This document shows, piece after piece, positions 12,189-53,551 of a stretch of 64,000 bases of DNA (position 1 is the stretch's first letter; each line of letters starts with the position of its first letter). Source of the DNA: Flavobacteriales bacterium (lineage in GTDB: Bacteria; Bacteroidota; Bacteroidia; Flavobacteriales; Flavobacteriaceae). The stretch is taken from positions 1-64,000 of the forward strand of contig JAMOUV010000033.1 in assembly GCA_027067965.1 (NCBI GenBank), in the 5' to 3' direction. The position numbers and the translations under genes were made by a program. Below the pieces are notes generated by a model. It made no database searches. It was not told the origin of the DNA and saw nothing but the letters and a program-made list of their open reading frames with translations.

Positions 12189-12739
12189 TCTGCTTGCGTG
12201 AGCATTTTTTCCAACTTCATAAGGTCTAAATAATTCTTACCCGAATCATAATATAAAAATGACTGAGCTTCCGGCTCAACAGTAAGTTCGTATATATAGT
12301 AATCTGCGGTTTTCTCGAGTAAACGAATGACAAATATTATGGGAATTGGCGATAACCCTCTATATTTTTTGATTATTATTTTTTCATCTAACAACAATAT
12401 TTTTTCATCGGAAAAATCAGGATGATTTTTTAATCTATCATAAATTTCAATCAAATTGTATTTGGACTTTATTATTCTTTTATGCGTAGCCGATAAAATT
12501 TCTTCGGTAATTTCTTTTACACCGGCTTTTTTCAAATTTCTTAACGTGAAATAAATCACCAATGCCGCTTGAATGATTCCGGCTAAAACGAAGGCAATAA
12601 ATGTAAACAAAACGATATAAAAATTAATTTTTTCTCCGGTAATTATTTTAAAAAGAATAAGAAGTAATTCAATAGACAAATAATAGAGGGTAAAATTCCG
12701 TGCGTATTTGAAAAAGAATTTCTTCACATAGGGATTCAT
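12185..12739 (-). CDS. two-helix membrane protein of unknown function (related to neighbour at 12777)
   Basis: A 184-residue protein with two transmembrane helices at about residues 15-35 and 42-68, then a soluble C-terminal region containing ILSATHKRIIKSKYN, IYDRLKNHPDF and, at the end, YDSGKNYLDLMKLEKML. The same spacing of motifs occurs in the adjacent 173-residue protein (ILKIKHHKIIESDLN, IKERLKSNPF, IDYGKNLENVKKIEDII), so the two look like diverged tandem duplicates. No known family is recognised. The genes are on the same strand, 37 bases apart, and are likely cotranscribed. Confidence 0.6.
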   Translation of the reverse strand: MNPYVKKFFFKYARNFTLYYLSIELLLILFKIITGEKINFYIVLFTFIAFVLAGIIQAALVIYFTLRNLKKAGVKEITEEILSATHKRIIKSKYNLIEIYDRLKNHPDFSDEKILLLDEKIIIKKYRGLSPIPIIFVIRLLEKTADYYIYELTVEPEAQSFLYYDSGKNYLDLMKLEKMLTQAD

Positions 12740-12776
12740 GAAAGATTCTTTTCGTAACTTCTTTATTTTCAGTAAT

Positions 12777-13298
12777 TTATTTCTTGATTATGTCTTCTAT
12801 TTTTTTGACGTTTTCCAAATTTTTTCCATAATCTATCAAAGTGGTTTTCAGTAGCGGGCGACTGGAAACCTCATATTTTTGTTTATTTCCCTCCGAAGCC
12901 ACCGGTTTGATGCGGATTTTTTCCCCGTAGGACCAGATCGAAAGTCCCGAAGTCAATTCCAATCCTTCGTCGGTTTGGTTAAACCGCATTTTGGCGGTAA
13001 ATGGATTGGATTTTAATCTTTCCTTAATTTGATTGATATTCAAATCCGATTCGATGATTTTATGATGTTTAATTTTCAAAATATCTTCATTGATTTTTAT
13101 TCCGGATCTCTTTAATCGATGAATATGCAACCAATAAATTATTCCGGTTAATCCTAAAGAAAAAATAAAATTCAGTGCGGTTAAATGAAGAAAATGACTT
13201 TTTTCACCCAAAACAAAATAGGGTAAAGTCATAATTATCATAAAAAATATAAAAATACCGATGAACAAGCGAATAAATAATTTAATTTGAGGTTTCAT
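12777..13298 (-). CDS. two-helix membrane protein of unknown function (related to neighbour at 12185)
   Basis: A 173-residue protein with two transmembrane helices (about 8-32 and 39-60), a predicted amphipathic linker with ILKIKHHKIIESDLNINQIKE, and a beta-rich C-terminal domain (GLELTSGLSIWSYGEKIRIKPV) ending in KIEDIIKK. It shares motif order and spacing with the 184-residue neighbour downstream. Codon use and base composition match surrounding genes. It is the first gene of the pair and starts 59 bases after the stop of the MauE/DoxX-like gene. No function is proposed. Confidence 0.6.
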   Translation of the reverse strand: MKPQIKLFIRLFIGIFIFFMIIMTLPYFVLGEKSHFLHLTALNFIFSLGLTGIIYWLHIHRLKRSGIKINEDILKIKHHKIIESDLNINQIKERLKSNPFTAKMRFNQTDEGLELTSGLSIWSYGEKIRIKPVASEGNKQKYEVSSRPLLKTTLIDYGKNLENVKKIEDIIKK

Positions 13299-34121: not shown

Positions 34122-34595
34122 GTGAAAATTTTAATCGGCACATATTATTCCAAATTGGACGGTCACGGTCGTGTACTGTTACCCAAAGGTTTGCGAGAGC
34201 AACTCAAGGATATGGAACACGAAGGATTTGTGCTTCGCCGGGCTACCTTCTTCGATAATCTGGAATTGCATCCCCGAAAAGAATGGGAACGCTGGATGAA
34301 AAAATTGCTTAAAGTAAATAAAACTTCGCGAAAAAAAGTACAACTCATTTCATTGATCAATGCCGGGGCGCGCTTAGTCCATTTGGATAGTCACGGCCGA
34401 TTGCAAATTCCCAAGGACCTGATCAAATTGATGGGACTGAAAAAAGAAGTAGTTATTGCCTCGGAAGGCAATATTCTGCAAATATGGGACAAGGACCGGT
34501 ACGAGCGTTTCTGGGAAGAACACAGAGAAAGTTTCCCTGATTTGATGGAAGAACTTTTAGACCACACGGATTTTGACGATGATGACGACGAATAA
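34122..34595 (+). CDS. mraZ: transcriptional regulator MraZ
   Basis: First gene of the dcw cluster, a DNA-binding protein that represses its own cluster in E. coli. The 157-residue protein has two AbrB-like halves: YYSKLDGHGRVLLPKGLREQL near the start and ARLVHLDSHGRLQIPKDLIKLMGL in the second half, with the paired D-x-x-G-R-x-x-x-P motif. The start is GTG 34122 (MKILIGTYYSKLD). The C-terminus is acidic (DHTDFDDDDDE). The protein overlaps rsmH by 14-17 bases. Candidate binding repeats lie at 34052-34076. Confidence 0.93.
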   Translation: MKILIGTYYSKLDGHGRVLLPKGLREQLKDMEHEGFVLRRATFFDNLELHPRKEWERWMKKLLKVNKTSRKKVQLISLINAGARLVHLDSHGRLQIPKDLIKLMGLKKEVVIASEGNILQIWDKDRYERFWEEHRESFPDLMEELLDHTDFDDDDDE

Positions 34596-35511: not shown

Positions 35512-35813
35512 CACTAAAAGATATTTTGCGTTTGGAAATGCTGCGCGGCGAAAAGGCCACCCGCAATTGGCTTTTTCTCTTGGGCATACTGGTTTATATG
35601 TTTATCAGTATTTGGCTCAGTCATGTATCGGAAATCAAAGCCGTAAAAATGTCCAAACTAACGGCCGAAAACCGGCGTTTGCGGTCGGAATATGTGAGTT
35701 TAAAAAGCATGTTGATGCAACAACAATTGCGTTCGAATGTCTATGACAAACTCAAAAACGACGGATTTATCATTCCCAAGCGACCACCGGTTCAAATCGA
35801 ACTCGAAGAATGA
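35508..35813 (+). CDS. ftsL: FtsL-like cell division protein
   Basis: A 101-residue bitopic protein: cytoplasmic part (residues 1-20), one transmembrane helix (about 21-39, LFLLGILVYMFISIWLSH), and a leucine-zipper-like periplasmic coiled coil (about 45-80) with VKMSKLTAENRRLRSEYVSL. Its position between rsmH and the class B PBP gene ftsI and its size match FtsL. It overlaps ftsI by 4 bases. Sequence conservation of FtsL is low, so the call rests on topology and position. Confidence 0.8.
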   Translation: MTLKDILRLEMLRGEKATRNWLFLLGILVYMFISIWLSHVSEIKAVKMSKLTAENRRLRSEYVSLKSMLMQQQLRSNVYDKLKNDGFIIPKRPPVQIELEE

Positions 35814-37561
35814 AAGATTATTTGAAAATAGTAAATATCAGAAGTTTGTTTTTAGCCGCCATGATCTTGGCAGTGGCGGTGGGAATTGTTTATAAATTAT
35901 TTGTCATTGCATTTATCGACGGTCCGGCATATCGCGAATTGGCCAATAAATACACGATTAAAACTTTTAAGGTAAAAGCCGCCCGGGGAAATATTTTTAG
36001 CGAAGACGGTCAGGTATTGGCCGTGACCGTACCCTTATATACCGTACATTTCGATCCGATGGTGATACGGAGCGATAAGGATTATTATAAAAACTTAAAG
36101 AAATTATCCGCCGGATTGGCCGGCATTGTGGGCCATGATTACCGGTATTGGTATAATAAACTTTCCAAGGCGCGAAAAAGAAAAGACAGGTATGTATTTA
36201 TTGCCAAGAACTTGACATTCAAGCAATTCGAACAATTAAAAAAACTTCCTCTCTTGCGACGCGGGCGCATCAAAGGCGGATTGATTTATGAAATAAAATC
36301 GACGCGTAAATATCCTTTCGGCAATATGCTCAAACGCACTATCGGCATATCCACCCCGGCAGCCAAATACGGTTTGGAAGGGGCCTATGACAAAATTTTG
36401 AGCGGAACCGACGGTGAACGACTGAAGCATAAAATCCGGGCAAATGCTTGGAAACCCGTAAATAATTTTAATGAAAAAGAACCTGTGGACGGCCCGGATT
36501 TGATTACCACCATTAACATGCAAATGCAAGACATCGCCCATCAAACTTTATTAAATCAATTGAAAAAATATAAAGCCGACCACGGTATATTGGTGCTGAT
36601 GGAAGTCAAAACGGGTGCCGTCAAGGCCATGGTTAATTTGAAAAGAAATGCTTCGGGAAATTATAGCGAAACGTTAAACTACGCCATTTTCGAAAAATTT
36701 GAACCGGGTTCCTTGTTTAAAACCTTTACTTATTTGGCTTTATTGGAAGACAATAAAATAGATACCGGTTTAACTTTTGAATTGTTTTCTAACCGTTGGA
36801 AATACTACGACCGTCATATCACGGATTCGCATCATTATTCTCATAAAAAAATGACCGTAGCGGAAGCATTTTCCCAAAGTTCAAATATTGTAACGGCCAA
36901 AATGGTGGATAGTTTCTATCGCCGTTCGCCTTCGCAATTTACTAACCGGCTTATCACGGGATTCGGTTTGGGAAACAAATTAAACCTTTCCATTAAAGGC
37001 GAAGCCGACCCTTTGATTCCTACGCCCGGCAGTGACAAGTGGAAAGGATATAAATTAGGCATGATGTCATTCGGATATACCGTAGGGCTAACTCCCATTC
37101 AGATATTGACCTATTATAATGGCATTGCGAATGGCGGAAAAGTATTAAAACCATATTTCGTCAAAGAAATACGCAAGAACGGCCAAATTATTCAATCCAC
37201 CGATCCGCAGGTAATTAATAGTTCGATGGCGTCGAAAAAGAATATTGAAATCATGCAAAAACTCATGCGAAAAGTGGTGAGGGAAGGAACCGCCAGAAAT
37301 ATTAATTCACCTTACGTGCAAATTGCCGGAAAAACCGGTACCACACAAACGGATTATTGGACGGGCCACACACAGTATATCGCTTCGTTTGCCGGATTTT
37401 TCCCTTATGAAGATCCTACCTATTCCATGATAGTTGTTGTGCACAAGCCCGACCCCAAAACGGGTTATTACGGCAATGTGGTGGCCGGCAAGGTCTTTCA
37501 AGAAGTAGCCGAACAGGTATATGGCATCACACCAAGAAAACTTATTGTCAAAGCGGAATGA
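35810..37561 (+). CDS. ftsI: division-specific peptidoglycan transpeptidase (class B PBP, FtsI/PBP3)
   Basis: Membrane-anchored transpeptidase of the divisome, 583 residues. One N-terminal helix (residues about 8-30), a PBP dimerisation domain with KTFKVKAARGNIFSEDGQVLA, then the penicillin-binding domain with S301-L-F-K304 in FEPGSLFKTF, the S-x-N motif in FSQSSNIVTAKM, and K508-T-G in IAGKTGTTQTD. It ends soon after the transpeptidase domain ([16 protein letters not shown]), without the PASTA domain seen on many Bacteroidota FtsI proteins. It overlaps ftsL and murE by 4 bases each. Confidence 0.92.
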   Translation: MKDYLKIVNIRSLFLAAMILAVAVGIVYKLFVIAFIDGPAYRELANKYTIKTFKVKAARGNIFSEDGQVLAVTVPLYTVHFDPMVIRSDKDYYKNLKKLSAGLAGIVGHDYRYWYNKLSKARKRKDRYVFIAKNLTFKQFEQLKKLPLLRRGRIKGGLIYEIKSTRKYPFGNMLKRTIGISTPAAKYGLEGAYDKILSGTDGERLKHKIRANAWKPVNNFNEKEPVDGPDLITTINMQMQDIAHQTLLNQLKKYKADHGILVLMEVKTGAVKAMVNLKRNASGNYSETLNYAIFEKFEPGSLFKTFTYLALLEDNKIDTGLTFELFSNRWKYYDRHITDSHHYSHKKMTVAEAFSQSSNIVTAKMVDSFYRRSPSQFTNRLITGFGLGNKLNLSIKGEADPLIPTPGSDKWKGYKLGMMSFGYTVGLTPIQILTYYNGIANGGKVLKPYFVKEIRKNGQIIQSTDPQVINSSMASKKNIEIMQKLMRKVVREGTARNINSPYVQIAGKTGTTQTDYWTGHTQYIASFAGFFPYEDPTYSMIVVVHKPDPKTGYYGNVVAGKVFQEVAEQVYGITPRKLIVKAE

Positions 37562-39012
37562 AAAAATGGGATAGACATATTACCGATAAACTGAAAATCC
37601 GGAAAATATCCGGCACAATACCCGACGAAATTGCCGGACTTACCGATGATTCCCGCAAAGTGGTTCCCGGCGGCGTGTTTATTGCCGTAAAAGGACCCGT
37701 GGCCGACGGACATGATTATATCGAACAAGCGGTAAAAAAAGGCGCATCTGTTATTATAAGCGAAAGAGATGTAAATGTGCCGGATCATGTTTATTTAATA
37801 ACCGTTGAAGATTCTCGCAAGGCATTGGCCGAATTGGCCGGATGGTATTACGATTATCCGTCCCGCCGCTTAAAACTCACCGGCATTACGGGAACCAACG
37901 GCAAGACGAGTGTAGCCACTATGCTTTACAAACTCTTTCGTAGAGCGGGATTTATTTCGGGTTTGATTTCCACCATTGAAATCAAAATCGGAGACGAAAG
38001 TCTTCCTACAAGGAATACCACGCCGGGCATTTTGGAATTGAACCGGATTTTGGCCGAAATGGTTTCGCAAGGAGTAGAATATGCTTTTATGGAAGTCAGT
38101 TCGCATGGAATCGATCAAGGAAGAATCATGGGCATCACATTCAGCGGCGGCGTTTTTACCAATCTAACTCATGAACACTTGGATTATCACGGAGATTTTA
38201 TCACCTACCGGGATGTAAAGAAAAAATTCTTCGACCGCTTGCCCGAAACGGCATTTGCATTGACCAATAAAGACGATAAAAACGGATTGTTTATGCTGCA
38301 AAATACCCGGGCAAAAAAATATACCTACGGCATCAAGAATCCGGCTGATTTCAAAACCGAAGTCATGGAAATGGATTTTAGCGGCATGTTGCTGAAAATC
38401 AACGGCAAAGAAGTTTGGACCAAATTAACGGGAATTTTCAATGCTTATAATTTAACCGCTGTTTACGGCGCGTCGGTGCTTTTAGGCATTCCTTCGGACG
38501 ATGCCTTGGTTTATCTAAGCGAATTGGAAGGACCCGACGGGCGTTTTGAGCGTGTGACGGCTCCCGACGGACGCATTGCCATCATTGATTACGCCCATAC
38601 ACCGGATGCATTGGAAAACGTATTGAAAACCATTGCCGGTATCCGGAAAAAAAATCAACAAATTATTACCGTAGTAGGCGCAGGGGGCGATCGAGACAAG
38701 GAAAAGCGCCCTAAAATGGCTCGAACGGCGGCACGTTTGAGCGATTGGGTCATCCTGACGTCAGATAATCCGCGAACCGAAAATCCGGCAGCCATATTAC
38801 ATGATATGTTGCAAGGAATAGGTCCCGAAGACAATTATAAAACCTTGGTCATCGAAGACCGGAGTCAGGCCATCAAAGCCGCCGCCCGGTATGCAAGAGA
38901 AGGCGATATTATTTTGATTGCCGGAAAAGGACACGAAACCTATCAAATTATAGGTAAAGAGAAAAGATATTTCAACGACAAGGAAGAAATAATCAAATAT
39001 TTTAATTCGTAA
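37558..39012 (+). CDS. murE: UDP-MurNAc-tripeptide synthetase MurE (meso-DAP adding)
   Basis: Cytoplasmic ligase adding meso-diaminopimelate to UDP-MurNAc-L-Ala-D-Glu. All three Mur ligase domains are present in 484 residues: the N-terminal UDP-binding part with [19 protein letters not shown]; the central ATPase domain with [15 protein letters not shown] and [12 protein letters not shown]; and the C-terminal domain with [15 protein letters not shown]-type sequence and D403-N-P-R406 in [11 protein letters not shown], the signature for meso-DAP specificity. A full, normal MurE here contrasts with the reduced MurD-like protein downstream. It starts in a 4-base overlap with ftsI. Confidence 0.95.
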
Positions 39013-39016
39013 ATAT

Positions 39017-40243
39017 ATGTTATATCATTTATTTGACTTTCTGAATTCCCATTATGATATTCCCGGCGCCGGATTGTTTCAGTATATCAGTTTCCGGTCG
39101 GCAATGGCTTTTACCATCGCATTTTTAATCAGTTTGATTTACGGAAAAAAACTTATTGCTATTCTACGCAGGCAACAAATCGGCGAAAATGTGCGTGATT
39201 TGGGGCTCGACGGTCAAAAAGCCAAAGAAGGCACCCCAACTATGGGCGGGCTTATGATTATTATTTCCACATTGATTGCCGTATTGTTGCTCAACGATTT
39301 GACCAACCCTTATATTCAATTATTGATTTTGACTTTAATTTGGATGGGCACCATCGGTTTTATCGATGATTATATCAAAGTCATCAAAAAAGACAAAACG
39401 GGTTTACGCGGTAAATTCAAAATTTTCGGTCAGGTCGGTCTGGGTGTAATTATCGCATTGGCAGTGTATTTTCATCCGGAAATCAACATCAAGACAAAGA
39501 ATTATCAAGTAAGCATCGAAGAAAAATCAAGAAATATTTCCAAGGCCTTTAATCCGCCCGAAAAGAGTCTGAAAACCACCTTGCCGGGATTTAAACATAA
39601 CGAATTTAATTACGAATGGTTTCTCCCGAAAAGTTTGAGGGGAAATTTATGGATCAAACTTCTATTGTTTATTTTTGTGGTGACCTTCATTATTACGGCG
39701 GTTTCCAACGGAGTTAATCTCACGGACGGAATCGACGGCTTGGCGGCGGGGACTTCAGCCATCGCCATCGGTGCACTTGCCATCTTGGCTTGGATTTCGG
39801 GCAACTTGATTTTTGCCGATTATCTAAACATTATGTACATACCCGGCGTAGGCGAAATTTCCGTGTTTTTGGCCGGATTCATCGGGGCATTGCTCGGTTT
39901 CTTGTGGTATAATGCCTATCCCGCCTATATTTTTATGGGCGATACGGGAAGTCTTACCATCGGAGCCATTATTGCGGTTATTTCCATATTTATTCGAAAA
40001 GAATTATTACTTCCGCTCCTGGGCGGCGTATTTCTTATCGAGAATTTATCGGTTATTCTTCAAACCCGCTATTTTAAATATACCCGAAAAAAATACGGCG
40101 AAGGAAGAAGAATTTTTAAAATGGCACCCATTCATCATCATTTTCAGAAAATGGGTTTGCACGAAAATAAAATTGTAGTCAGATTTTGGATTGTGGCCAT
40201 GTTATTGGCGGTTTTGAGTATAGCATTATTAAAAGTCAGGTAA
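39017..40243 (+). CDS. mraY: phospho-N-acetylmuramoyl-pentapeptide-transferase MraY
   Basis: Integral membrane enzyme transferring phospho-MurNAc-pentapeptide to undecaprenyl phosphate (lipid I synthesis). It has 408 residues, about ten transmembrane helices, and the motifs [32 protein letters not shown] (the catalytic DD pair), [33 protein letters not shown] and [12 protein letters not shown] (the HHH motif). It includes the extra periplasmic stretch between helices typical of Bacteroidota MraY. It ends 2 bases before the MurD-like gene. Confidence 0.97.
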
Positions 40244-40245
40244 TT

Positions 40246-40782
40246 ATGAAAGAATTGATTATAAAATATCACGGTGATACGTTGGCAGCGAAAATCAAAT
40301 ACGGACTACCCGTAGGCGAAAAGGCCGTGAAGTATGCCAAATGTTTTGAAAATAAATATCCGCCTTACCGGATGAAAATGAGCGGAAAACATAATGGCGT
40401 GGTATTGATAAACGACAGTGGGGCTTCGGGTATTCATGCCACTTATTTCAGTTTGCAACAAATTAATGCGCCCGTCATTTGGATTGTTTGGAATGACGAA
40501 GCAGATGCAGCATTCGAGCAAATGGATTTGGCTTTGTTACACCGGGTCAAAAAGATTATCGTAATCGGCAAAGCATATTTAAAATTGGATTATTTGTTCG
40601 GACAAGAAACCTGTGTCGAAGAAGCCGGATATCTGGAAGATGCATTCCGGCGTGCTTTGAAAGATGCCCAAGCGGGAGATTATATTTTGTTTTCGCCCGC
40701 CACCAAAAAAATTGAAGGAATCGGTTCCAGCAAGGAACTTTATGAGCATACCGAAAAAGTATTAAAAAAATATATCAAATAA
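40246..40782 (+). CDS. stand-alone MurD C-terminal-domain-like protein at the murD position
   Basis: A 178-residue protein between mraY and ftsW, where Bacteroidota carry full murD (about 440-450 residues). It matches only the C-terminal Mur ligase domain: PPYRMKMSGKHNGVVLINDS (residues 39-58), then IHATYFSLQQINAPVIWIVW, VKKIIVIGK and the EDAFRRALKDAQAGDYILFSPA helix-strand. The N-terminal UDP-binding and central ATPase domains are absent. In the retained domain, the usual INDSKATN reads INDSGASG, the GG-x-DKG glutamate-binding loop reads VWNDEADA, and SPACASFD reads SPATKKIE, so the residues that contact D-Glu in MurD are lost. It can hardly ligate D-Glu alone. ATG 40246 follows mraY by 2 bases, and the stop shares a base with the ftsW start. 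Codon use matches neighbours, so it is maintained rather than decaying. Confidence 0.75.
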   Translation: MKELIIKYHGDTLAAKIKYGLPVGEKAVKYAKCFENKYPPYRMKMSGKHNGVVLINDSGASGIHATYFSLQQINAPVIWIVWNDEADAAFEQMDLALLHRVKKIIVIGKAYLKLDYLFGQETCVEEAGYLEDAFRRALKDAQAGDYILFSPATKKIEGIGSSKELYEHTEKVLKKYIK

Positions 40783-41954
40783 TGCCGGAAAGACTGAAAA
40801 ATTTGAAAATTTACATCAAGGGCGACCCCGCCTTGGCGGGAATCGGACTCTTATTGGTATTGATATCATTTGCGGTGGTTTTCAGTACCAGCAGTAATTT
40901 GGTGAACATTTATCAAACCCATTCGCATTGGTTTTATTTGCTCAAACATACCATCCTTATTGCTACCGCCATCTTTTTATTTATAGTTAGCATGCATCTC
41001 CCGGTGGAATATTTGCGAAAATCCATTCCCGTTTTGATGATATTGACCGTATTATTGCTTGTTTACACTTTATTTTTCGGCATTTCGGCTAACGGCGACA
41101 CGGCACGGCGATGGATTAAAATTCCTTTTGCCACCATTCAACCTTCGTTTATTGCCATGTATGTATTGATGATTTTTACCGCCGATTTTTTGGATAAAAT
41201 AAAAAATAAAAAAACCACCTTATTGGAGGATTTCAAAACCTATTGGGCTTGGGTCTTCCTTAGCATCGGCTTGATAATGCCGGCAAACAATTCGACGGCC
41301 GCTCTTATCTTGGGCATGATTTTCATTATTTTATTTGTCGGTGGATATTCGTTTGGAAAATTAACGGTAATTCTTCTTACGGGTATTGCCCTGATCGGTA
41401 TTTATTATGGATTGGCCAAGGCATTTCCCCGATATATACCCAACCGGTTCGAAACCGCCGAAAGCCGTATCAAAGAATTTCTGGGAATAGGAGACGATGA
41501 GAAGAAAGCAAAAAAAGTATTCGAATTGGACCAACCCACCCGTGCCAAAATGGCCATTGCTTCGGGCGGATTGATACGATGGGCACCGGGAAAAAGCGTA
41601 CAAAAAAATATGCTTTCGCAATCTTCGTCGGATTTTGTATATGCCGTCATTATTGAAGAATACGGGGTGTTGTTAGGCGGTATAGGGATTTTGTTTTTAT
41701 ATCTGTTTTTATTTGTCAGAATTTGGATTATCGCTTATAACTTGAAATCTTATTTCAAAAAAATACTGGTATTGGCCTTGGGCTTGCCCATTATCATTCA
41801 GGCCTTGATTAATATGAGTGTGGCCACGGGATTAATTCCCGTTACCGGCCAACCGCTGCCCTTGATTAGCATGGGAGGGACGAGCATCATGATGACGGGA
41901 TTGATACTGGGAATCATTGTGAAAATCAGTGAAGATATTTATGAAGATGAGTGA
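40782..41954 (+). CDS. ftsW: septal peptidoglycan polymerase FtsW (SEDS family)
   Basis: Lipid II glycosyltransferase of the divisome, 390 residues with about ten transmembrane helices. Recognisable SEDS motifs are GDTARRWIKIPFATIQPSFIAM, LIMPANNSTAALILGM, RAKMAIASGGLIRWAPGKSVQKN, LSQSSSDFVYAVIIEEYG with the essential acidic region, and the C-terminal VATGLIPVTGQPLPLISMGGTS. The A of its ATG is the last base of the upstream stop codon. It overlaps murG by 8-14 bases. Confidence 0.94.
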   Translation: MPERLKNLKIYIKGDPALAGIGLLLVLISFAVVFSTSSNLVNIYQTHSHWFYLLKHTILIATAIFLFIVSMHLPVEYLRKSIPVLMILTVLLLVYTLFFGISANGDTARRWIKIPFATIQPSFIAMYVLMIFTADFLDKIKNKKTTLLEDFKTYWAWVFLSIGLIMPANNSTAALILGMIFIILFVGGYSFGKLTVILLTGIALIGIYYGLAKAFPRYIPNRFETAESRIKEFLGIGDDEKKAKKVFELDQPTRAKMAIASGGLIRWAPGKSVQKNMLSQSSSDFVYAVIIEEYGVLLGGIGILFLYLFLFVRIWIIAYNLKSYFKKILVLALGLPIIIQALINMSVATGLIPVTGQPLPLISMGGTSIMMTGLILGIIVKISEDIYEDE

Positions 41955-43062
41955 CCGAAAGCATACATATAAATTCTTAATCAGCGGAGGTGGCACCGGA
42001 GGTCATATTTTTCCGGCTTTGAGCATTGCGGGCGAGATTAAAAAACGCTTGCCCGACGCGGAGATTTTATTTGCCGGAGCCGAAAATCGCATGGAAATGC
42101 AACGTGTGCCCCAAGCGGGTTATGAAATTGTCGGGCTTCCCATTGCCGGATTGCAACGAAAATTGACGCCCAAAAATCTCATGCTTCCGGTTAAAATCAT
42201 CAAAAGCATCATGAAAGCGAAGGATTTAATCAAATCCTTCCGGCCCGATGCGGTTATCGGAACGGGCGGCTATGCATCGGCACCGGTGGTTTGGATGGCT
42301 CAACAAATGAAAATTCCCACTTATATTCAGGAACAAAATTCCTATCCCGGCATCACCAACCGCTTTTTGGGAAAGAAAGCGAGAAAAATTTTTACGGCCT
42401 ATGACGAAGCCGCACAATATTTTCCTGCCGGTAAAGTCATTATGACGGGCAATCCGGTGCGGCCCGAAATCAAAGAAGTATCCCTGACCCCGAAAGATTA
42501 TCACGCTTTCGGATTGAAGGAAAATTTGCCCGTCGTATTGATATTGGGCGGAAGTTTGGGTTCGGCAATCATCAACCGGTATGTGGCGCAATGGGTTGAA
42601 AATTCTTCGGCCAAGCCCGGTTTTCAACTGCTGTGGCAAACCGGAAAACTCTACTACGACCGCTATAAAAATTTGGAAAACGAATACGTCAAAATCGTTC
42701 CCTTTATTAAAGAAATGAACAAGGCCTATAGTTTGGCGGATCTCATCGTTTCGCGTGCGGGCGCCGGCACGCTTTCGGAACTTGCCTTGGTAGGTAAACC
42801 CGTTATTTTAATTCCTTCGCGCAATGTGAGCGAAGACCATCAAACCAAAAATGCCAAAGCGCTTGAAAAAAGAAATGCCGCCATTTTGCTTCCCGAAGAA
42901 CAATTGGACGAGTTGTTTGAACGAATTGCCGGCCTACTCACGGATGAAAAACGACGAAAAGAATTATTGGAAAATATCATGCAAACGGCCAAGCCGGATG
43001 CTGTGGAAGAGATAGTCGATCATATATTGAAGGATATAGAAATAAATTCCAATCCGGATTAA
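41947..43062 (+). CDS. murG: UDP-GlcNAc--undecaprenyl-pyrophosphoryl-MurNAc-pentapeptide GlcNAc transferase MurG
   Basis: GT28 glycosyltransferase making lipid II at the inner membrane face. The 371-residue protein starts MSDRKHTYKFLISGGGTGGHIFPAL, the diagnostic glycine-rich loop, then GTGGYASAPVVWMAQQMKIPTYIQEQNSYPGITNRFL, TGNPVRPEI, LILGGSLGSAIINR and the C-domain SRAGAGTLSELALVGKPVILIPS. ATG 41947 is taken; ATG 41941 or GTG 41929 would add a few residues. In Bacteroidota murC normally follows; here ftsQ starts directly at the next base after the stop. Confidence 0.95.
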   Translation: MSDRKHTYKFLISGGGTGGHIFPALSIAGEIKKRLPDAEILFAGAENRMEMQRVPQAGYEIVGLPIAGLQRKLTPKNLMLPVKIIKSIMKAKDLIKSFRPDAVIGTGGYASAPVVWMAQQMKIPTYIQEQNSYPGITNRFLGKKARKIFTAYDEAAQYFPAGKVIMTGNPVRPEIKEVSLTPKDYHAFGLKENLPVVLILGGSLGSAIINRYVAQWVENSSAKPGFQLLWQTGKLYYDRYKNLENEYVKIVPFIKEMNKAYSLADLIVSRAGAGTLSELALVGKPVILIPSRNVSEDHQTKNAKALEKRNAAILLPEEQLDELFERIAGLLTDEKRRKELLENIMQTAKPDAVEEIVDHILKDIEINSNPD

Positions 43063-43782
43063 ATGAAGAAAAAATTCGTACATATCGGCATCGTAAGTTT
43101 TTGGATTATAATTTTCATGGGAATTGTCTCGTGGGCATGGATAGCCAATGCCAAATTCGCACTAAAAAAGCCGGAAAATTACGAAGTGCATATTTATCCG
43201 CAAGACAAATCCTATATCACCGAAAAAGAAGTGGTCGAATTAATAAAAAAATATGATATCAAAGATACGAACGATGTAGTCCGGAGCCGAATAGTGGAAT
43301 CCCGATTGGAACAACATCCTTTTATCGATAATGCCGAAGCATATATCAATACGAAAGGCAAGCTGGCGGTAGAGATTACTCAATTCGAACCCTGGGCTTA
43401 TGTGGATTTCGGTTCCTACCGGAAAATGATGGATAAGAAGGGTTATATTAAACCCGTACCTGCCCGGGAAAAACCCGAATTACCGGTGATTTTCGGCATT
43501 TATTCCGACCGGGATATCAGGGAACTCTATCCGTTGATCAAAGATTTGAAACAAGATAGTTTTTATCACCATAGAATCAAATCGATTGCATTGCGTCGAA
43601 ATGGTATTTATTTGAAACTCAACGACTTTGCGCCGGAAATTAATCTGGGCGGAATGGATGCTTACCGGACAAAACTCGGCAAAGCCAAGGATATGATCCG
43701 CGTATTAAATCAACAAAAAAAGACCCGTTTATACAAACAGGTAGATGTAAGTTATCAAGGTCAAATTATTTGTAAAAAATAA
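43063..43782 (+). CDS. ftsQ: cell division protein FtsQ
   Basis: Bitopic divisome protein of 239 residues. It has a short lysine-rich N-terminus, a transmembrane helix (about 8-30, IGIVSFWIIIFMGIVSWAW), a POTRA-like domain (residues about 45-115: EVHIYPQDKSYITEKEVVELI, VVRSRIVESRLEQHPFIDNAEAYI) and the beta domain with LAVEITQFEPWAYVDF, DKKGYIKPVPAREKPELPVI and VSYQGQIICKK at the end. The ATG directly follows the murG stop. Size and domains are normal for Bacteroidota FtsQ. Confidence 0.88.
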   Translation: MKKKFVHIGIVSFWIIIFMGIVSWAWIANAKFALKKPENYEVHIYPQDKSYITEKEVVELIKKYDIKDTNDVVRSRIVESRLEQHPFIDNAEAYINTKGKLAVEITQFEPWAYVDFGSYRKMMDKKGYIKPVPAREKPELPVIFGIYSDRDIRELYPLIKDLKQDSFYHHRIKSIALRRNGIYLKLNDFAPEINLGGMDAYRTKLGKAKDMIRVLNQQKKTRLYKQVDVSYQGQIICKK

Positions 43783-45216: not shown

Positions 45217-46800
45217 ATGGAAAAAAATGTCATCGCATTTCCCGATTTAAAGAAAAAAATATCACAACTCATCAAGGTTATTGGCGTGGGAGGAGCAGGA
45301 TCCAATGCCGTCAATTATATGTTCGAACAGGAAACCTTAAAACATGTGGATTATATTGTTTGCAATACGGATTTGCAAGCATTAAATGATAGTCCGGTAC
45401 CTTTAAAGATTCAAATAGGCAAGGAATTGACAGGTGGTTTGGGTGCCGGAAGTAAACCCGAAACGGGAAAGCATGCGGCGGAAGAAAATATTAAAGAAAT
45501 AGAGGAGATTTTGAAAGACAAAACCAAAATGCTTTTCATAACCGCGGGTATGGGAGGTGGAACCGGTACGGGAGCGGCCCCCGAAATAGCCAAATTGGCC
45601 AAAAAATTAGGCATCCTTACCGTGGCTATCGTTACCATGCCTTTTCGTTATGAAGGCCCCTTGCGATTAAAATCGGCGCAGGAAGGTATCCGGGAATTAC
45701 GCGATCACGTGGATTCTCTTTTAATAGTGGATAACGAAAAATTAATAGGCGTATATGGCGATTTACCCATCACCGAAGCATTTCATAAATCGGATGAAGT
45801 TTTAGCCAATGCCGTAAAAAGTGTAAGTCAAGTTATCGTATCGAATTATCATATCAACGTGGATTTTAACGATGTGGAAACCATCTTGAGAGGGAGCGGA
45901 ACGGCTCTCATAGGAACAGCCACGGCAAGTGGTAAAGGCCGGGCAGAAAAGGTAATCGAAAAGGCATTGGATTCGCCTTTACTCAATGATAATAATATTG
46001 AAGGAGCTAAAAACGTATTGCTTCTGATTATTTCAGGAACCCAGGAGGCCACCGTAAAAGAAATCGAATTTATTAATCGATACATTCAACAAAAAGCAGG
46101 AAAAAATGTGAATATAATTATGGGACTTGGCAAGGAACCTGCTCTTGAAAAAAATATTAGAGTTACCTTGATTGCTACGGGTTTTCCTATAGAAAAACAG
46201 AAAGAAATTGAAGAATCCACGCCGGAATTGATTATTTCGGTCAAAACTTCGAAAGATGATGAAATTGATGAGAATTTTCTTGAAATACACGAAAATATTC
46301 CGGATGATACCATGACTTCGGTACGCGAAGATGTTTCGAATGAAACCGAAACTAAAGCCATCGTAGAGGAAATTAATTTAACGGACCAATCAAACGGTAC
46401 GGGAAATACGGAAAATGATAATAACCCGGAAATGAATGCGAAAGAAGACCGGGAATTGGATTTGTTTTCCGGTATGTGGGAAAAAGAAAAACCGGCATCA
46501 AAACAGCATGCCAAAAAAGTAAATATTAAAGTAACGGAGCCCGAATCTCCCGCACATCTAACCCAAACTAATGAAGAAAAAAAATATACGGGGAGAAATT
46601 TGAAAAATGCCATTCAAACTTCCGTGGCCCGAAAACAAACTTCCGCTAAAAGGAATCATCCTCGACCGGTAAGAAAAAAATTGAATAAATCCGACTTGAG
46701 TTCCGATATTTTAAGCAAATTGGATAAATATACCTATAAGTTTATACATGGAAATAATTTGCCCCCGGAAGAAAAACCAAAAAATGAGGAAAATTCTTAA
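45217..46800 (+). CDS. ftsZ: cell division GTPase FtsZ
   Basis: Tubulin-like GTPase that forms the division ring. The 527-residue protein has the GTP-binding motifs IKVIGVGGAGSNAVNYM, VCNTDLQALNDS, the tubulin signature GMGGGTGTGAAPEIAKLAK and the T7 loop NVDFNDVETILRGSG. The core ends around residue 320; the remaining 200 residues are a long, charged, probably disordered linker, longer than in most bacteria but common in Bacteroidota. The C-terminus (KYTYKFIHGNNLPPEEKPKNEENS) does not show an obvious canonical FtsA-binding peptide. It is the last gene of the dcw cluster. Confidence 0.95.
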   Translation: MEKNVIAFPDLKKKISQLIKVIGVGGAGSNAVNYMFEQETLKHVDYIVCNTDLQALNDSPVPLKIQIGKELTGGLGAGSKPETGKHAAEENIKEIEEILKDKTKMLFITAGMGGGTGTGAAPEIAKLAKKLGILTVAIVTMPFRYEGPLRLKSAQEGIRELRDHVDSLLIVDNEKLIGVYGDLPITEAFHKSDEVLANAVKSVSQVIVSNYHINVDFNDVETILRGSGTALIGTATASGKGRAEKVIEKALDSPLLNDNNIEGAKNVLLLIISGTQEATVKEIEFINRYIQQKAGKNVNIIMGLGKEPALEKNIRVTLIATGFPIEKQKEIEESTPELIISVKTSKDDEIDENFLEIHENIPDDTMTSVREDVSNETETKAIVEEINLTDQSNGTGNTENDNNPEMNAKEDRELDLFSGMWEKEKPASKQHAKKVNIKVTEPESPAHLTQTNEEKKYTGRNLKNAIQTSVARKQTSAKRNHPRPVRKKLNKSDLSSDILSKLDKYTYKFIHGNNLPPEEKPKNEENS

Positions 46801-49786: not shown

Positions 49787-52700
49787 ATGACTTTCCAAGA
49801 ATATTATCTCCAAAAGTATTATGACAAGATACAAGAAATTATTAATGAAAAGCCGAACGCCATTTTTGTTATTTTAGGTCAACCGGAATTATTATTATCA
49901 AGTGATGAACGTTCCTTGGAGTTGCAAAAGCATATTGCAGATACGGATACGTTTTTGAAGCATGGAAATGAGGAATTGTTTGATGAAGATTGGCGCGAAA
50001 CTTTATATGAAACTTTTCTCGGCAGAAAAAAAGATTATTTAATTATATCCTATCCACAGTATTTTTATTTTATTAAAAGCTATTCCTCCACTACACAAGC
50101 TAAAAGGATAAAAATTTTAAATGATAATCTGAGAAATTTATTTCCTTTGGATAGTGAGTATTATATTCCACCAATTGAAGATGAAGAAGGCGAAATAATA
50201 GAAAAAAGACCGGAAAATTTACCTGATTATCAAGCAGAACAGGTTGAAGTAAATGGAAAATATTTTTATTCTATTGTTGCTCCTCTCCAAAAAGACAATG
50301 TCGTTAATGTTTTTAATGAAAAGAAAGAATTACAAACAATTGAAGATGATGACCAATTTGACGTGCTGACTATTTCGTCTGATGATTATTCATTAGATAT
50401 TATTGTGAATGATTTGATAGAAAATAACAATTTTTCACAACAATATATAGTAAAACATTTTTTAAAAGAGAATGAAATTGATTTTGAAGAAAGGCTGAGA
50501 ACTTTAAACTACATTTTCAATAATTTCAATGGATCTCTATATCAAACTAAAAAAGATACAAAAGCACCTGTGGATTATGTCCCTAATGAGGAATATCTAT
50601 CTTTATTAAGAAGATATTGGGGTGAAAATGCTAATTTTAGAACGTTCAAGGTATATAAAAATCCGGGATTTAATAAAGAAATTGTTGAGATATCTCAAGA
50701 AGTTATTATTAGTAAAATTATTAACGAGTATAATAATTCCATTGAAAATCAATTCACAAGGGATTTATTTTTAACAGCACCAACAGGATCTGGAAAATCC
50801 TTACTATTTCAATTACCTGCTTTTTATATTTCTGAAAGAGGTGATGTTACGATAGTAGTTACACCTTTAATTTCATTAATGAAAGATCAAGTCCACGCAA
50901 TAAAGGAAAGAGGGTTTGAAAAAGTAGAGTATTTAAATAGCGAACTTTCATTAATTGAGAGGGAAAGAATTATTAATTCTTGTAAAAATGGAGAAACAGA
51001 TATTTTATACATGTCTCCTGAATTATTATTATCGTATGATATAACTTATTTTATTGGAGAAAGAAATTTAGGCTTACTAGTTATTGATGAAGCACATTTG
51101 GTTACTACCTGGGGACGTGATTTTCGAGTAGATTATTGGTTTTTGGGTAACTACATTAAAAAAACTCGAAAATACCATGGAATGGCTTTTCCTTTAGTTG
51201 CATTGACGGCAACAGCAGTTTATGACGGACCAAATGATATGGTTTTTGATACCATTGATAGTTTAGGAATGCGAAATCCTTATATCTATATAGGACAACT
51301 TAAAAGAGATGATATAACTTTTGTTATTAATAATGAAGAAATAGAAAGTAATTATGAAGAAAATAAAATTAGGCAAACAGTAGATTTTATAAAGGGAGTA
51401 AATGATTTATGCTTAAAAACTCTTGTGTACGCTCCTTATACTTCGCATGTAGAAAAAATTTTTAGGACTGATTTTCAGACAATGCAGGAAATAGCAGTTA
51501 AATACCATGGTAAATTAAATCCCGATGAAAAAGAAATGGCATTTTATAAATTTAAAACAGGTGAAAAACGGATCATGATTGCTACCAAAGCATTTGGTAT
51601 GGGAGTAGATATTCCTGATATTCAAGTTGTATATCATCATGCTCCATCGGGATTATTACCTGATTATGTTCAAGAAATCGGAAGGGTGGCAAGAAAAAGC
51701 GATATTAAAGGGTATGCCACTTTAAATTATTCCACCAAAGATCAAAGATATTCAAAGGCATTGCATGGTATGTCATCTATCAAGCAATATCAATTAAGAG
51801 AAGTTTTAAAGAAAATATATAATTTATATCAAAAAAATGATCGTAAACGAAACCTTTTAATTTCATCCGATGATTTTTCATATATATTTTCCATTTTGCC
51901 TGATGCGGTTGATCAAAAGGTGTTAACTTCCTTGATGATGCTAGAAAAAGATTACTTACAAAAAACAAGATTTAATGTATTAATAGTTCGGCCTAAAAAA
52001 TTATTTGTAACCGTTTATGCTAGAATACAAAATCGGGACTATGAAAAATTAATAGAGAAGTTTGGAAATAATAATTATTTTCAAGTTATAAGAAATAGAA
52101 ATGATTATAAGTATATAACCATTCATTTGGATAAATTATGGAAAGATCATTTTTCAGAGCAAAGTTTTCCTGTCATTAAAAGGAAATTTTACGAAAAGAA
52201 CTTATTTTCCGATGAAAATATTGAAATCAAACCTTTATTAAAATTGTCTTATTCTTTAAATAAGGACGCTCAAAATGCTGAAGTATATTTGAAATCTGTC
52301 CTAAATAGTTTAAATAATTCCCTTGCTCTTTTGCAAAATGAAGGATTTTTTAACAAGAAAGAACTGACCAATCGAATAAATTTATTTACAGGGGATATAG
52401 ATGTAGCTAGAAAATTAGCAGATTTTATAATAAGTGCTTATGCTGATCAAGTAAATGGTTTTTTACAGCAAAGAAGAATTTTCAACAATGAAGAAAATAG
52501 AATGGAGTATAGATATCGTATTATTAATAATTTTTATTTGAGATATTTTGAAAGTCTCTTACGATTATTTAGAAAATTATTTATCAATCAAAATTTAACT
52601 TCTGCTGTAAGATATATTGAGAATTTAGAAAGTAGTTTAGCCAAATATATTCGTTTAGGACACATATTAGAGATTTTAGATATTGGAACTTTTGATGTAA

Positions 52701-53551
52701 AAGGTGGGGATAAACCGATGATTTTTATACGTATAAATGATCCGGCAAGGATTTTACGTGATGCTCAAAATAAGTCATATAATAATAAAATTTTATCCAA
52801 AACACTTGAAAAACATTATATAAGTAATGAAATCTTTGATCACTTCTTTTTGAGAAAATTTTCGAATGAAGAAAGATGGAATTTTATTGAAGATTTCTTT
52901 TTGGGGATGGATATGGAGGATTTGATAGAACAATATCCCGGAGAAGAGCAAGCTAATAATATTGATATAATAGAATTTTTACGAGAAAATGAAAATATTG
53001 AGGAAAATTGTAATAGATTTAATTTGAATAAGATAAATGATAGTGAAAACAACACATCAAATGGAGAAAATTCAACTGAACGACTTATAAATAATATGCC
53101 GGAATTTTTACCGCAAGAAGGAGCGAAATATTATGGAAGAAATTACTTAACACTTTCTACTAAGAATGGCAGCCAAACCAAAACAGTAAATAAATGGATT
53201 GAGCAAGATCCAGTGCGTTTATATAAGAATATGAAAGAATTTAATTTTAGACTTGGAAGAAATGAGTTTGAAATTATGAGGAGTAAAATAAAAAATAAAT
53301 ATCCTGAAGATTACAAAAAAATCAAGGAATTAAAATTATGGATAGAATTCCCTGGATATGATAGAAAAGTTCAAGCCTCAATCCCTTTTGATTATGATCC
53401 GGTAAAATTTTATAAATGGTGGTTGAGAAATAATAATATAGTTTATTTAAGCAAGGTAAATAAGATTAGGCTTTTTAATAAAGTGAATGAAATTTCTCCT
53501 GAAACATTAAGAAAAAAAGACAGGGATTTTCTTAATAATCCAAATAACTAA
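49787..53551 (+). CDS. large RecQ-like DEAH helicase of unknown function, AT-rich
   Basis: A 1254-residue superfamily 2 helicase. Residues 1-310 show no recognised domain. Then come TAPTGSGKSLLFQLPA (Walker A, K337), VVTPLISLMKDQ (motif Ia), DEAH at 434-437, VALTATA (motif III), and a helicase C domain with TLVYAPYTSHVEKIF, KRIMIATKAFGMGVDIPDI and LPDYVQEIGRVARKSD (motif VI, about 618-634). These resemble RecQ, but no zinc-binding cysteines of the RQC region follow. Residues 640-1254 are long, helix-rich and unassigned. The gene is much more AT-rich than its neighbours (AGA, ATA and TTA codons are frequent) and stands alone between clpB and a degraded region, as expected for transferred DNA. 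A defence or DNA-repair role is possible but unproven. Confidence 0.75.
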   Translation: MTFQEYYLQKYYDKIQEIINEKPNAIFVILGQPELLLSSDERSLELQKHIADTDTFLKHGNEELFDEDWRETLYETFLGRKKDYLIISYPQYFYFIKSYSSTTQAKRIKILNDNLRNLFPLDSEYYIPPIEDEEGEIIEKRPENLPDYQAEQVEVNGKYFYSIVAPLQKDNVVNVFNEKKELQTIEDDDQFDVLTISSDDYSLDIIVNDLIENNNFSQQYIVKHFLKENEIDFEERLRTLNYIFNNFNGSLYQTKKDTKAPVDYVPNEEYLSLLRRYWGENANFRTFKVYKNPGFNKEIVEISQEVIISKIINEYNNSIENQFTRDLFLTAPTGSGKSLLFQLPAFYISERGDVTIVVTPLISLMKDQVHAIKERGFEKVEYLNSELSLIERERIINSCKNGETDILYMSPELLLSYDITYFIGERNLGLLVIDEAHLVTTWGRDFRVDYWFLGNYIKKTRKYHGMAFPLVALTATAVYDGPNDMVFDTIDSLGMRNPYIYIGQLKRDDITFVINNEEIESNYEENKIRQTVDFIKGVNDLCLKTLVYAPYTSHVEKIFRTDFQTMQEIAVKYHGKLNPDEKEMAFYKFKTGEKRIMIATKAFGMGVDIPDIQVVYHHAPSGLLPDYVQEIGRVARKSDIKGYATLNYSTKDQRYSKALHGMSSIKQYQLREVLKKIYNLYQKNDRKRNLLISSDDFSYIFSILPDAVDQKVLTSLMMLEKDYLQKTRFNVLIVRPKKLFVTVYARIQNRDYEKLIEKFGNNNYFQVIRNRNDYKYITIHLDKLWKDHFSEQSFPVIKRKFYEKNLFSDENIEIKPLLKLSYSLNKDAQNAEVYLKSVLNSLNNSLALLQNEGFFNKKELTNRINLFTGDIDVARKLADFIISAYADQVNGFLQQRRIFNNEENRMEYRYRIINNFYLRYFESLLRLFRKLFINQNLTSAVRYIENLESSLAKYIRLGHILEILDIGTFDVKGGDKPMIFIRINDPARILRDAQNKSYNNKILSKTLEKHYISNEIFDHFFLRKFSNEERWNFIEDFFLGMDMEDLIEQYPGEEQANNIDIIEFLRENENIEENCNRFNLNKINDSENNTSNGENSTERLINNMPEFLPQEGAKYYGRNYLTLSTKNGSQTKTVNKWIEQDPVRLYKNMKEFNFRLGRNEFEIMRSKIKNKYPEDYKKIKELKLWIEFPGYDRKVQASIPFDYDPVKFYKWWLRNNNIVYLSKVNKIRLFNKVNEISPETLRKKDRDFLNNPNN

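Follow-up and report, generated by a model that had tools for sequence, protein, structure and literature searches.

In the bacterial genus studied here, all that remains of MurD is the C-terminal domain, the last third of the enzyme. This stand-alone domain (MurD-C) occupies the murD slot of the dcw cluster and is under purifying selection, and its sequence indicates that it is no longer able to carry out MurD chemistry. Several Bacteroidota genomes jointly lack MurC and MurD, and mostly also MurI. The best explanation overall, which we judge to be evenly balanced between right and wrong, combines entry of a preformed peptide via an Mpl-type ligase with a second task for the MurD tail.

The short gene in the murD slot

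The window, the whole 64,000-nucleotide stretch of DNA analysed, carries a dcw cluster on the forward strand that starts with mraZ (34122..34595) and ends with ftsZ (45217..46800). These two genes, ftsI (35810..37561, the division transpeptidase of the cluster), mraY (39017..40243) and ftsW (40782..41954) are named from their sequence and position. An intact murE (37558..39012; NF001126, 598.6 bits), with a DNPR motif, lies between ftsI and mraY. Directly downstream of mraY and directly upstream of ftsW is a gene encoding a protein of 178 residues (40246..40782). Its ATG follows the mraY stop codon after a gap of 2 nt and its own stop codon overlaps the ftsW ATG by 1 nt, in agreement with the tight junctions described in the initial annotation. 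Behind ftsW, murG (41929..43062; TIGR01133, 309.6 bits) is followed directly by an ftsQ-like gene (43063..43782), so called from its position and with no family match in Pfam or NCBIfam. This gene occupies the place where relatives have murC, and no murC lies between it and murG. Elsewhere in the window, an unusually long open reading frame (1254 aa, 49787-53551), judged by eye to encode a RecQ-like helicase, lies downstream of a gene likewise judged by eye to be clpB-like.

Only the third Mur ligase domain is present in the 178-residue protein. Its sole NCBIfam match at E<=0.001 is to the MurD model TIGR01087, covering model positions 304-419 of 441 with 57.7 bits (E 1.1e-15) against a cut-off of 211.95 for a whole MurD. 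In the Pfam scan it scored 24.5 bits with Mur_ligase_C, just under the cut-off of 28.4, and contained neither the N-terminal nor the middle Mur domain (PF01225, PF08245). MurD ligase requires a UDP-binding, an ATPase and a C-terminal domain, and the short protein falls short of this architecture. A profile of 18 stand-alone tails, searched against the PDB, matched 11 distinct sequences at E<=0.01, all 11 of them MurD. The AlphaFold2 model of MurD-C, built from the same number of aligned rows (18), has a mean pLDDT of 85; averaged over stretches of ten residues, pLDDT is 85-98 from residue 41 onwards and 34-64 before it. In a Foldseek search of the PDB with this model, MurD chains take the first 33 places (E 9.6e-10 to 2.4e-7), and FolC, Mpl, MurF and others follow only from E 2.6e-5 on; the predicted fold is that of a MurD C-terminal domain. 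Together, the NCBIfam, PDB profile and fold matches to MurD rule out an unrelated protein family.

The three altered motifs reported initially are as written: INDSGASG, VWNDEADA and SPATKKIE stand in the positions of MurD INDSKATN, GG-x-DKG and SPACASFD. In MurD, SKATN, GGxDKG and CASFD serve in D-Glu binding and catalysis, and the D-Glu-binding and catalytic residues of the C-domain are not retained in MurD-C. Across all 81 full Bacteroidota MurDs the N-D-S-K, T-N, GG, D-K-G-N, C and S-F-D columns are identical; the lysine of GGxDKG, present in 81/81 of these, is found in 0/18 stand-alone proteins, and the threonine of SKATN and the phenylalanine of SFD are kept in 5/18 and 2/18, respectively. 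Asp317, the DKG lysine, the SKATN threonine and the SFD phenylalanine all have functional roles in MurD.

A different set of residues has been held constant. Nine are invariant in the eight sequences from the genus, among them R42, D57, W79, D84, S150 and P151, and the S150-P151 pair is also retained in 18/18 stand-alone tails. R42 aligns with E. coli Arg302 and, counting from Arg302, D57 aligns with Asp317. R42 is found in each of the 14 tails that replace MurD and is absent from all four tails in tandem with it, and D57 is retained in the same 14. The position of W79 is Trp in 72/81 full MurDs. D84 is a new residue, since it is invariant in the genus and the same position is Val in 64/81 full MurDs. 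In closed E. coli MurD, Arg302 touches the alpha-phosphate of ADP (PMC4816537). As far as sequence can tell, D-Glu chemistry is gone from the tail, whereas constraint persists on part of the surface that faces ATP. The loss of R42 in all four tandem tails suggests that tandem and replacement tails may differ in task.

Selection on the tail and the missing Mur enzymes

The short gene is present in eight of the nine genus genomes, its own included (seven of the other eight, found at 29-53% identity). In all seven other carriers it was found behind mraY, either in the mraY-ftsW slot or, in G004, at a contig end. This recurrence rules out an assembly loss of about 800 bases in the window. The remaining genome, G003 (88% complete), gave no match to the short gene, and its dcw region was not located. 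Compared within the genus, the proteins are 28-54% identical to the window protein. Nei-Gojobori dN/dS is 0.26 for G006/G008 (dS 0.40) and 0.23 for L087/L088 (dS 1.08), the two least saturated pairs; values of 0.18 for the own genome and G001 and 0.07 for L143/L148 come from pairs in which dS is saturated. For MraY, three of the same four pairs gave 0.06-0.09. With dN/dS above that of MraY and below 1, MurD-C evolves faster than mraY yet remains constrained. The earlier view of a non-catalytic MurD C-domain kept in the division cluster is supported.

These values also bear on a rival account, in which a decaying murD has left only its end behind, retained for no more than translational coupling between mraY and ftsW. 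The tight junctions with both neighbours and the fast divergence within the genus speak for it, as does the clean deletion of the tail in the family of G044 and G057. However, a dN/dS well under 1, nine invariant residues in eight diverged genomes, a confidently predicted fold and the carriage of the tail by several lineages, in some of them in tandem with an intact MurD, leave this account improbable.

In the genome from which the window comes, which is 98.3% complete, a Mur middle domain is present at E<=0.001 in four proteins, namely MurE, MurF and an Mpl-type ligase, assigned by family scans, and FolC, named from its sequence. A second MurD elsewhere was sought and rejected, with none over cut-off and no further Mur middle domain. 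Across all nine genus genomes no full MurD scored over cut-off, the MurL model gave no match (it matches 2/23 of all genomes searched), and neither MurC nor MurI was found. The initial annotation had assigned D-Glu ligation to another protein. That another MurD does so is improbable in the genus, and with full MurD, MurL, MurC and MurI all missing from the nine genomes the wall route itself has probably changed. That an overlooked MurD2/MurL system or other Glu ligase does the ligation is extremely improbable: two genomes outside the genus (G063 and G064, below) seem to have adopted such a solution, but the MurL model drew a blank in all nine genus genomes, no spare middle domain exists in the own genome, and the absence of MurC would leave no acceptor UDP-MurNAc-L-Ala.

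In a panel of 60 relatives, the own genome included, MurC and MurD were both over cut-off in 48 and both missing in the same 12; never was just one absent. The 12 comprise the nine genus genomes, G033, and G044 and G057, which belong to another family of the order. G033 is a single contig of 3.5 Mb from the same family as the genus, without MurC and MurD and with MurI. MurI is missing in 13 of the 60, that is, in 11/12 genomes without MurC and MurD and in 2/48 others (G028 and G051). As nine of the 12 belong to one genus, these counts are not independent and describe a pattern, not separate events. In G028, which has MurC and MurD and lacks MurI, an epimerase gene is followed by a gene for a 344-aa protein that looks by eye like DgcN (L084:8566-10642); this pair is perhaps another source of D-Glu.

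Tails elsewhere in Bacteroidota

In a survey of 80 named dcw loci, 69 had a full MurD only (L135 being cut by a contig end), five had a tail where MurD would be (L087, L088, L120, L125, L157), and four had an intact full MurD followed by a tail in tandem (L119, L143, L148, L150; about 12600-13200). One locus, L146, had neither and also lacked murC in the cluster; L121 was cut off. MurI is present in the four tandem-tail genomes. Among the replacement loci, G060 and G061 (L087, L088) have the short gene, no full MurD and no MurI, together with an Mpl-type ligase and an epimerase at 53-55% identity. In G062 (L120; 1.2 Mb, possibly incomplete) no full MurD, MurL, MurI or epimerase was found. The remaining two, G063 and G064, lack MurI and keep the MurD tail in the dcw cluster. 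In G063 (L125) a MurD-family protein (328 bits) is encoded next to a MurL-like one outside the cluster, on L171, and G064 (L157) has an 891-aa MurL-like/MurD-like fusion at L172:1495-4170 on the reverse strand; the MurL matches score 263.5 and 238 bits against a model cut-off of 700. These genes suggest that G063 and G064 may use an L-Glu route of the MurD2/MurL type.

The tail can also be lost. In G044 and G057 (L180, L181) mraY is followed directly by ftsW, the dcw cluster having no MurD and no tail, and in the L180, L181 and L146 clusters there is no murC behind murG, a clean loss of murD, murC and tail. The tail is thus not universally needed and, as G044 and G057 lack both MurD and MurD-C in the cluster, it is not needed for a route without MurC and MurD as such.

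The tails may have arisen once or several times. In the MraY tree the genus and L087/L088 are split from the other 81 rows by a branch with support of 100; G033 is nested within Flavobacteriaceae, close to Lutibacter, Polaribacter and Wenyingzhuangia (98). The C-domain tree rests on few columns, and its branches are long. In a reduced set, which kept 10 of 18 stand-alone rows once eight rows that were long or near-copies had been dropped along with one full MurD, a tree with the ten tails held together scored 33.7 log-likelihood units above the free quick tree (p-AU 0.88); this preference may mislead because of the long branches and the shared loss of the same residues. Two names are at odds with the MraY tree: L109, titled Chlorobiota, groups with Flavobacteriaceae, and L159, titled Chryseobacterium gleum, with Crocinitomicaceae, and both are probably misnamed MAGs.

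The distribution of the tails also informs a proposal in which MurD-C would still take part in ligation, docking in trans on the Mpl-type ligase or MurE and giving its C-domain for addition of Glu. The ATP-facing R42 and D57 kept in 14 replacement tails, alongside changed Glu-binding residues, would be expected of such a split enzyme. However, the Mpl-type ligase, MurE and MurF each own a C-domain (Pfam), the DKG lysine has gone from every one of the 18 tails, and genomes with an intact MurD or a MurD/MurL-like pair can carry MurD-C as well, which makes the proposal very improbable.

Because the tail is kept by genomes with an intact MurD, by genomes with a MurD/MurL-like pair and by genomes with neither, we infer that it has a second role. 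Its job is probably separable from ligation and could be one of docking, scaffolding or sensing; the data are compatible with a role as scaffold or regulator. The tail would perform a non-catalytic task in the division and wall complex, by docking or regulation and perhaps by way of the surface that once faced ATP, and would so survive the loss or replacement of the ligase.

A candidate route and known systems

Cells of the genus probably start the wall peptide in an unusual way, and two of their enzymes are candidates for doing so. The first is the Mpl-type ligase, present in 10/12 genomes without MurC and MurD and in 44/48 others (once as a fragment); the two genomes in which it was not found, G001 and G004, are MAGs broken into 370 and 440 contigs. 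In the own genome it scores higher with the murC model (245 bits, cut-off 335) than with the mpl model (165 bits, cut-off 388.7), under both curated cut-offs. An Mpl-like insertion is present in 22/22 Mpl-type and 0/7 MurC sequences, and an MSSG end in all 21 Mpl-type sequences with letters there (that of G008 is cut) and again in 0/7 MurC. The residue after DFAH/DYAH (own genome C32), aligned with PaMpl His377, differs by MurD status. It is Ala in 11/12 sequences from genomes without a full MurD, the exception being Ser in G033, with G001 and G004 having no ligase to compare; it is Ser in 9/10 from MurD-bearing genomes, with Ala in G049, this side comprising 10 of the 44 ligases with kinship ignored. 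A tie between this split and the loss of MurD is suggestive only.

The second candidate is an L-Ala-D/L-Glu-epimerase-like protein of the enolase superfamily, found at E<1e-30 in 10/12 genomes without MurC and MurD and in 11/48 others. At this threshold it is missing in G003 and G057, and only pieces were seen in G004 and G006. The protein stays under every curated epimerase cut-off tried, with 217 bits for DgcA (cut-off 400) and 137 bits for the L-Ala-D/L-Glu epimerase model PRK15129 (cut-off 343). Among solved structures the nearest chain is 3iji, which was deposited as a muconate cycloisomerase and which we take to be a Bacteroides dipeptide epimerase. In G005 the gene adjoins one that looks NlpC/P60-like by eye, an arrangement known from wall-recycling loci. 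No ligase gene stood out beside the epimerase in 8/10 fetched neighbourhoods, G007, G060 and G061; seven of the eight neighbourhoods viewed are from genomes without MurC and MurD, and all neighbours were judged by eye alone. No L-Ala-Glu ligase or importer was identified, which counts against a preformed-peptide route.

Under the explanation we favour, a preformed Ala-Glu peptide, or a longer one, would be joined to UDP-MurNAc by the Mpl-type ligase, its D-Glu having been made on the free peptide by the epimerase-like enzyme, and MurE and then MurF would complete the stem. A characterised Mpl takes L-Ala-D-Glu slowly in vitro: the Psychrobacter enzyme has rates per min of 260 for tripeptide, 1.4 for L-Ala-D-Glu and 0.7 for L-Ala, so that tripeptide is used roughly 190 times better than dipeptide (PMC3060825). 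This preference would suit a rival scheme, rather unlikely in our view, in which foreign muropeptides are taken up and the tripeptide loaded by the Mpl-type ligase, leaving MurC, MurD and MurI dispensable. The NlpC/P60-like neighbour in G005 and the small genomes of the genus (1.6-2.3 Mb) would fit such scavenging. Against it, MurE would be needless with tripeptide loading, yet the own genome has an intact copy and the dcw clusters fetched carry it too, and G033, at 3.5 Mb, also lacks MurC and MurD. It is the retention of an intact MurE that favours loading of a dipeptide. In its fullest form the preferred explanation joins two statements: that the MurD C-domain has a non-catalytic second role in the division cluster of Bacteroidota, persisting on its own when MurD is lost, replaced by MurD2/MurL or duplicated, and that several lineages without MurC and MurD, mostly also without MurI, load Ala-Glu, epimerised as the free dipeptide, through an Mpl-type ligase. 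This conjunction is possible, and we advance it tentatively.

MurC, MurD and MurI are regarded as near-universal, essential antibiotic targets. The lineages described here seem to do without two or all three of them while keeping the later pathway steps examined; they are predicted to be insensitive to MurC and MurD inhibitors, and their alternative route is open to testing. A MurD tail without chemistry also provides a handle on the old question of structural roles for Mur ligases in the wall-synthesis complex. Among the matches listed from the open-licence literature, as represented by titles and the starts of abstracts, none described a stand-alone MurD C-domain or an Mpl route lacking MurC, MurD and MurI.

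MurD-C resembles MurD in predicted fold, motif order and slot in the dcw cluster, and differs from it in being free-standing, without UDP-binding and ATPase domains, and in having lost Glu-site residues including the DKG lysine. Mpl and the genus ligase share a P-loop, the insertion around SPLDPRPKF and the MSSG end, unlike MurC; the genus motifs DFAHxPSKV and ELHTYSSLN differ from both PaMpl and MurC, and the score lies under the mpl cut-off. Whereas Mpl is a recycling ligase, the genus enzyme would be the sole way onto UDP-MurNAc. The closest parallel to the proposed route is that of Xanthomonas, where MurD2 and MurL operate without MurI and Glu is epimerised after the peptide bond is formed (PMC8788868). 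The taxa given there are Proteobacteria and actinobacteria, the string 'bacteroid' occurring 0 times, and a second report lists the same taxa and adds weak relatives from a fungus, from cyanobacteria and from an amoeba (PMC5808125). The MurD/MurL-like pairs of the two tail-keeping Bacteroidota genomes G063 and G064 resemble this system. The route proposed for the genus would likewise dispense with MurI and epimerise Glu after bond formation, but the Xanthomonas route needs MurC, MurD2 and MurL. In the genus, none of these three was found, and the epimerase-like enzyme belongs instead to the enolase superfamily.
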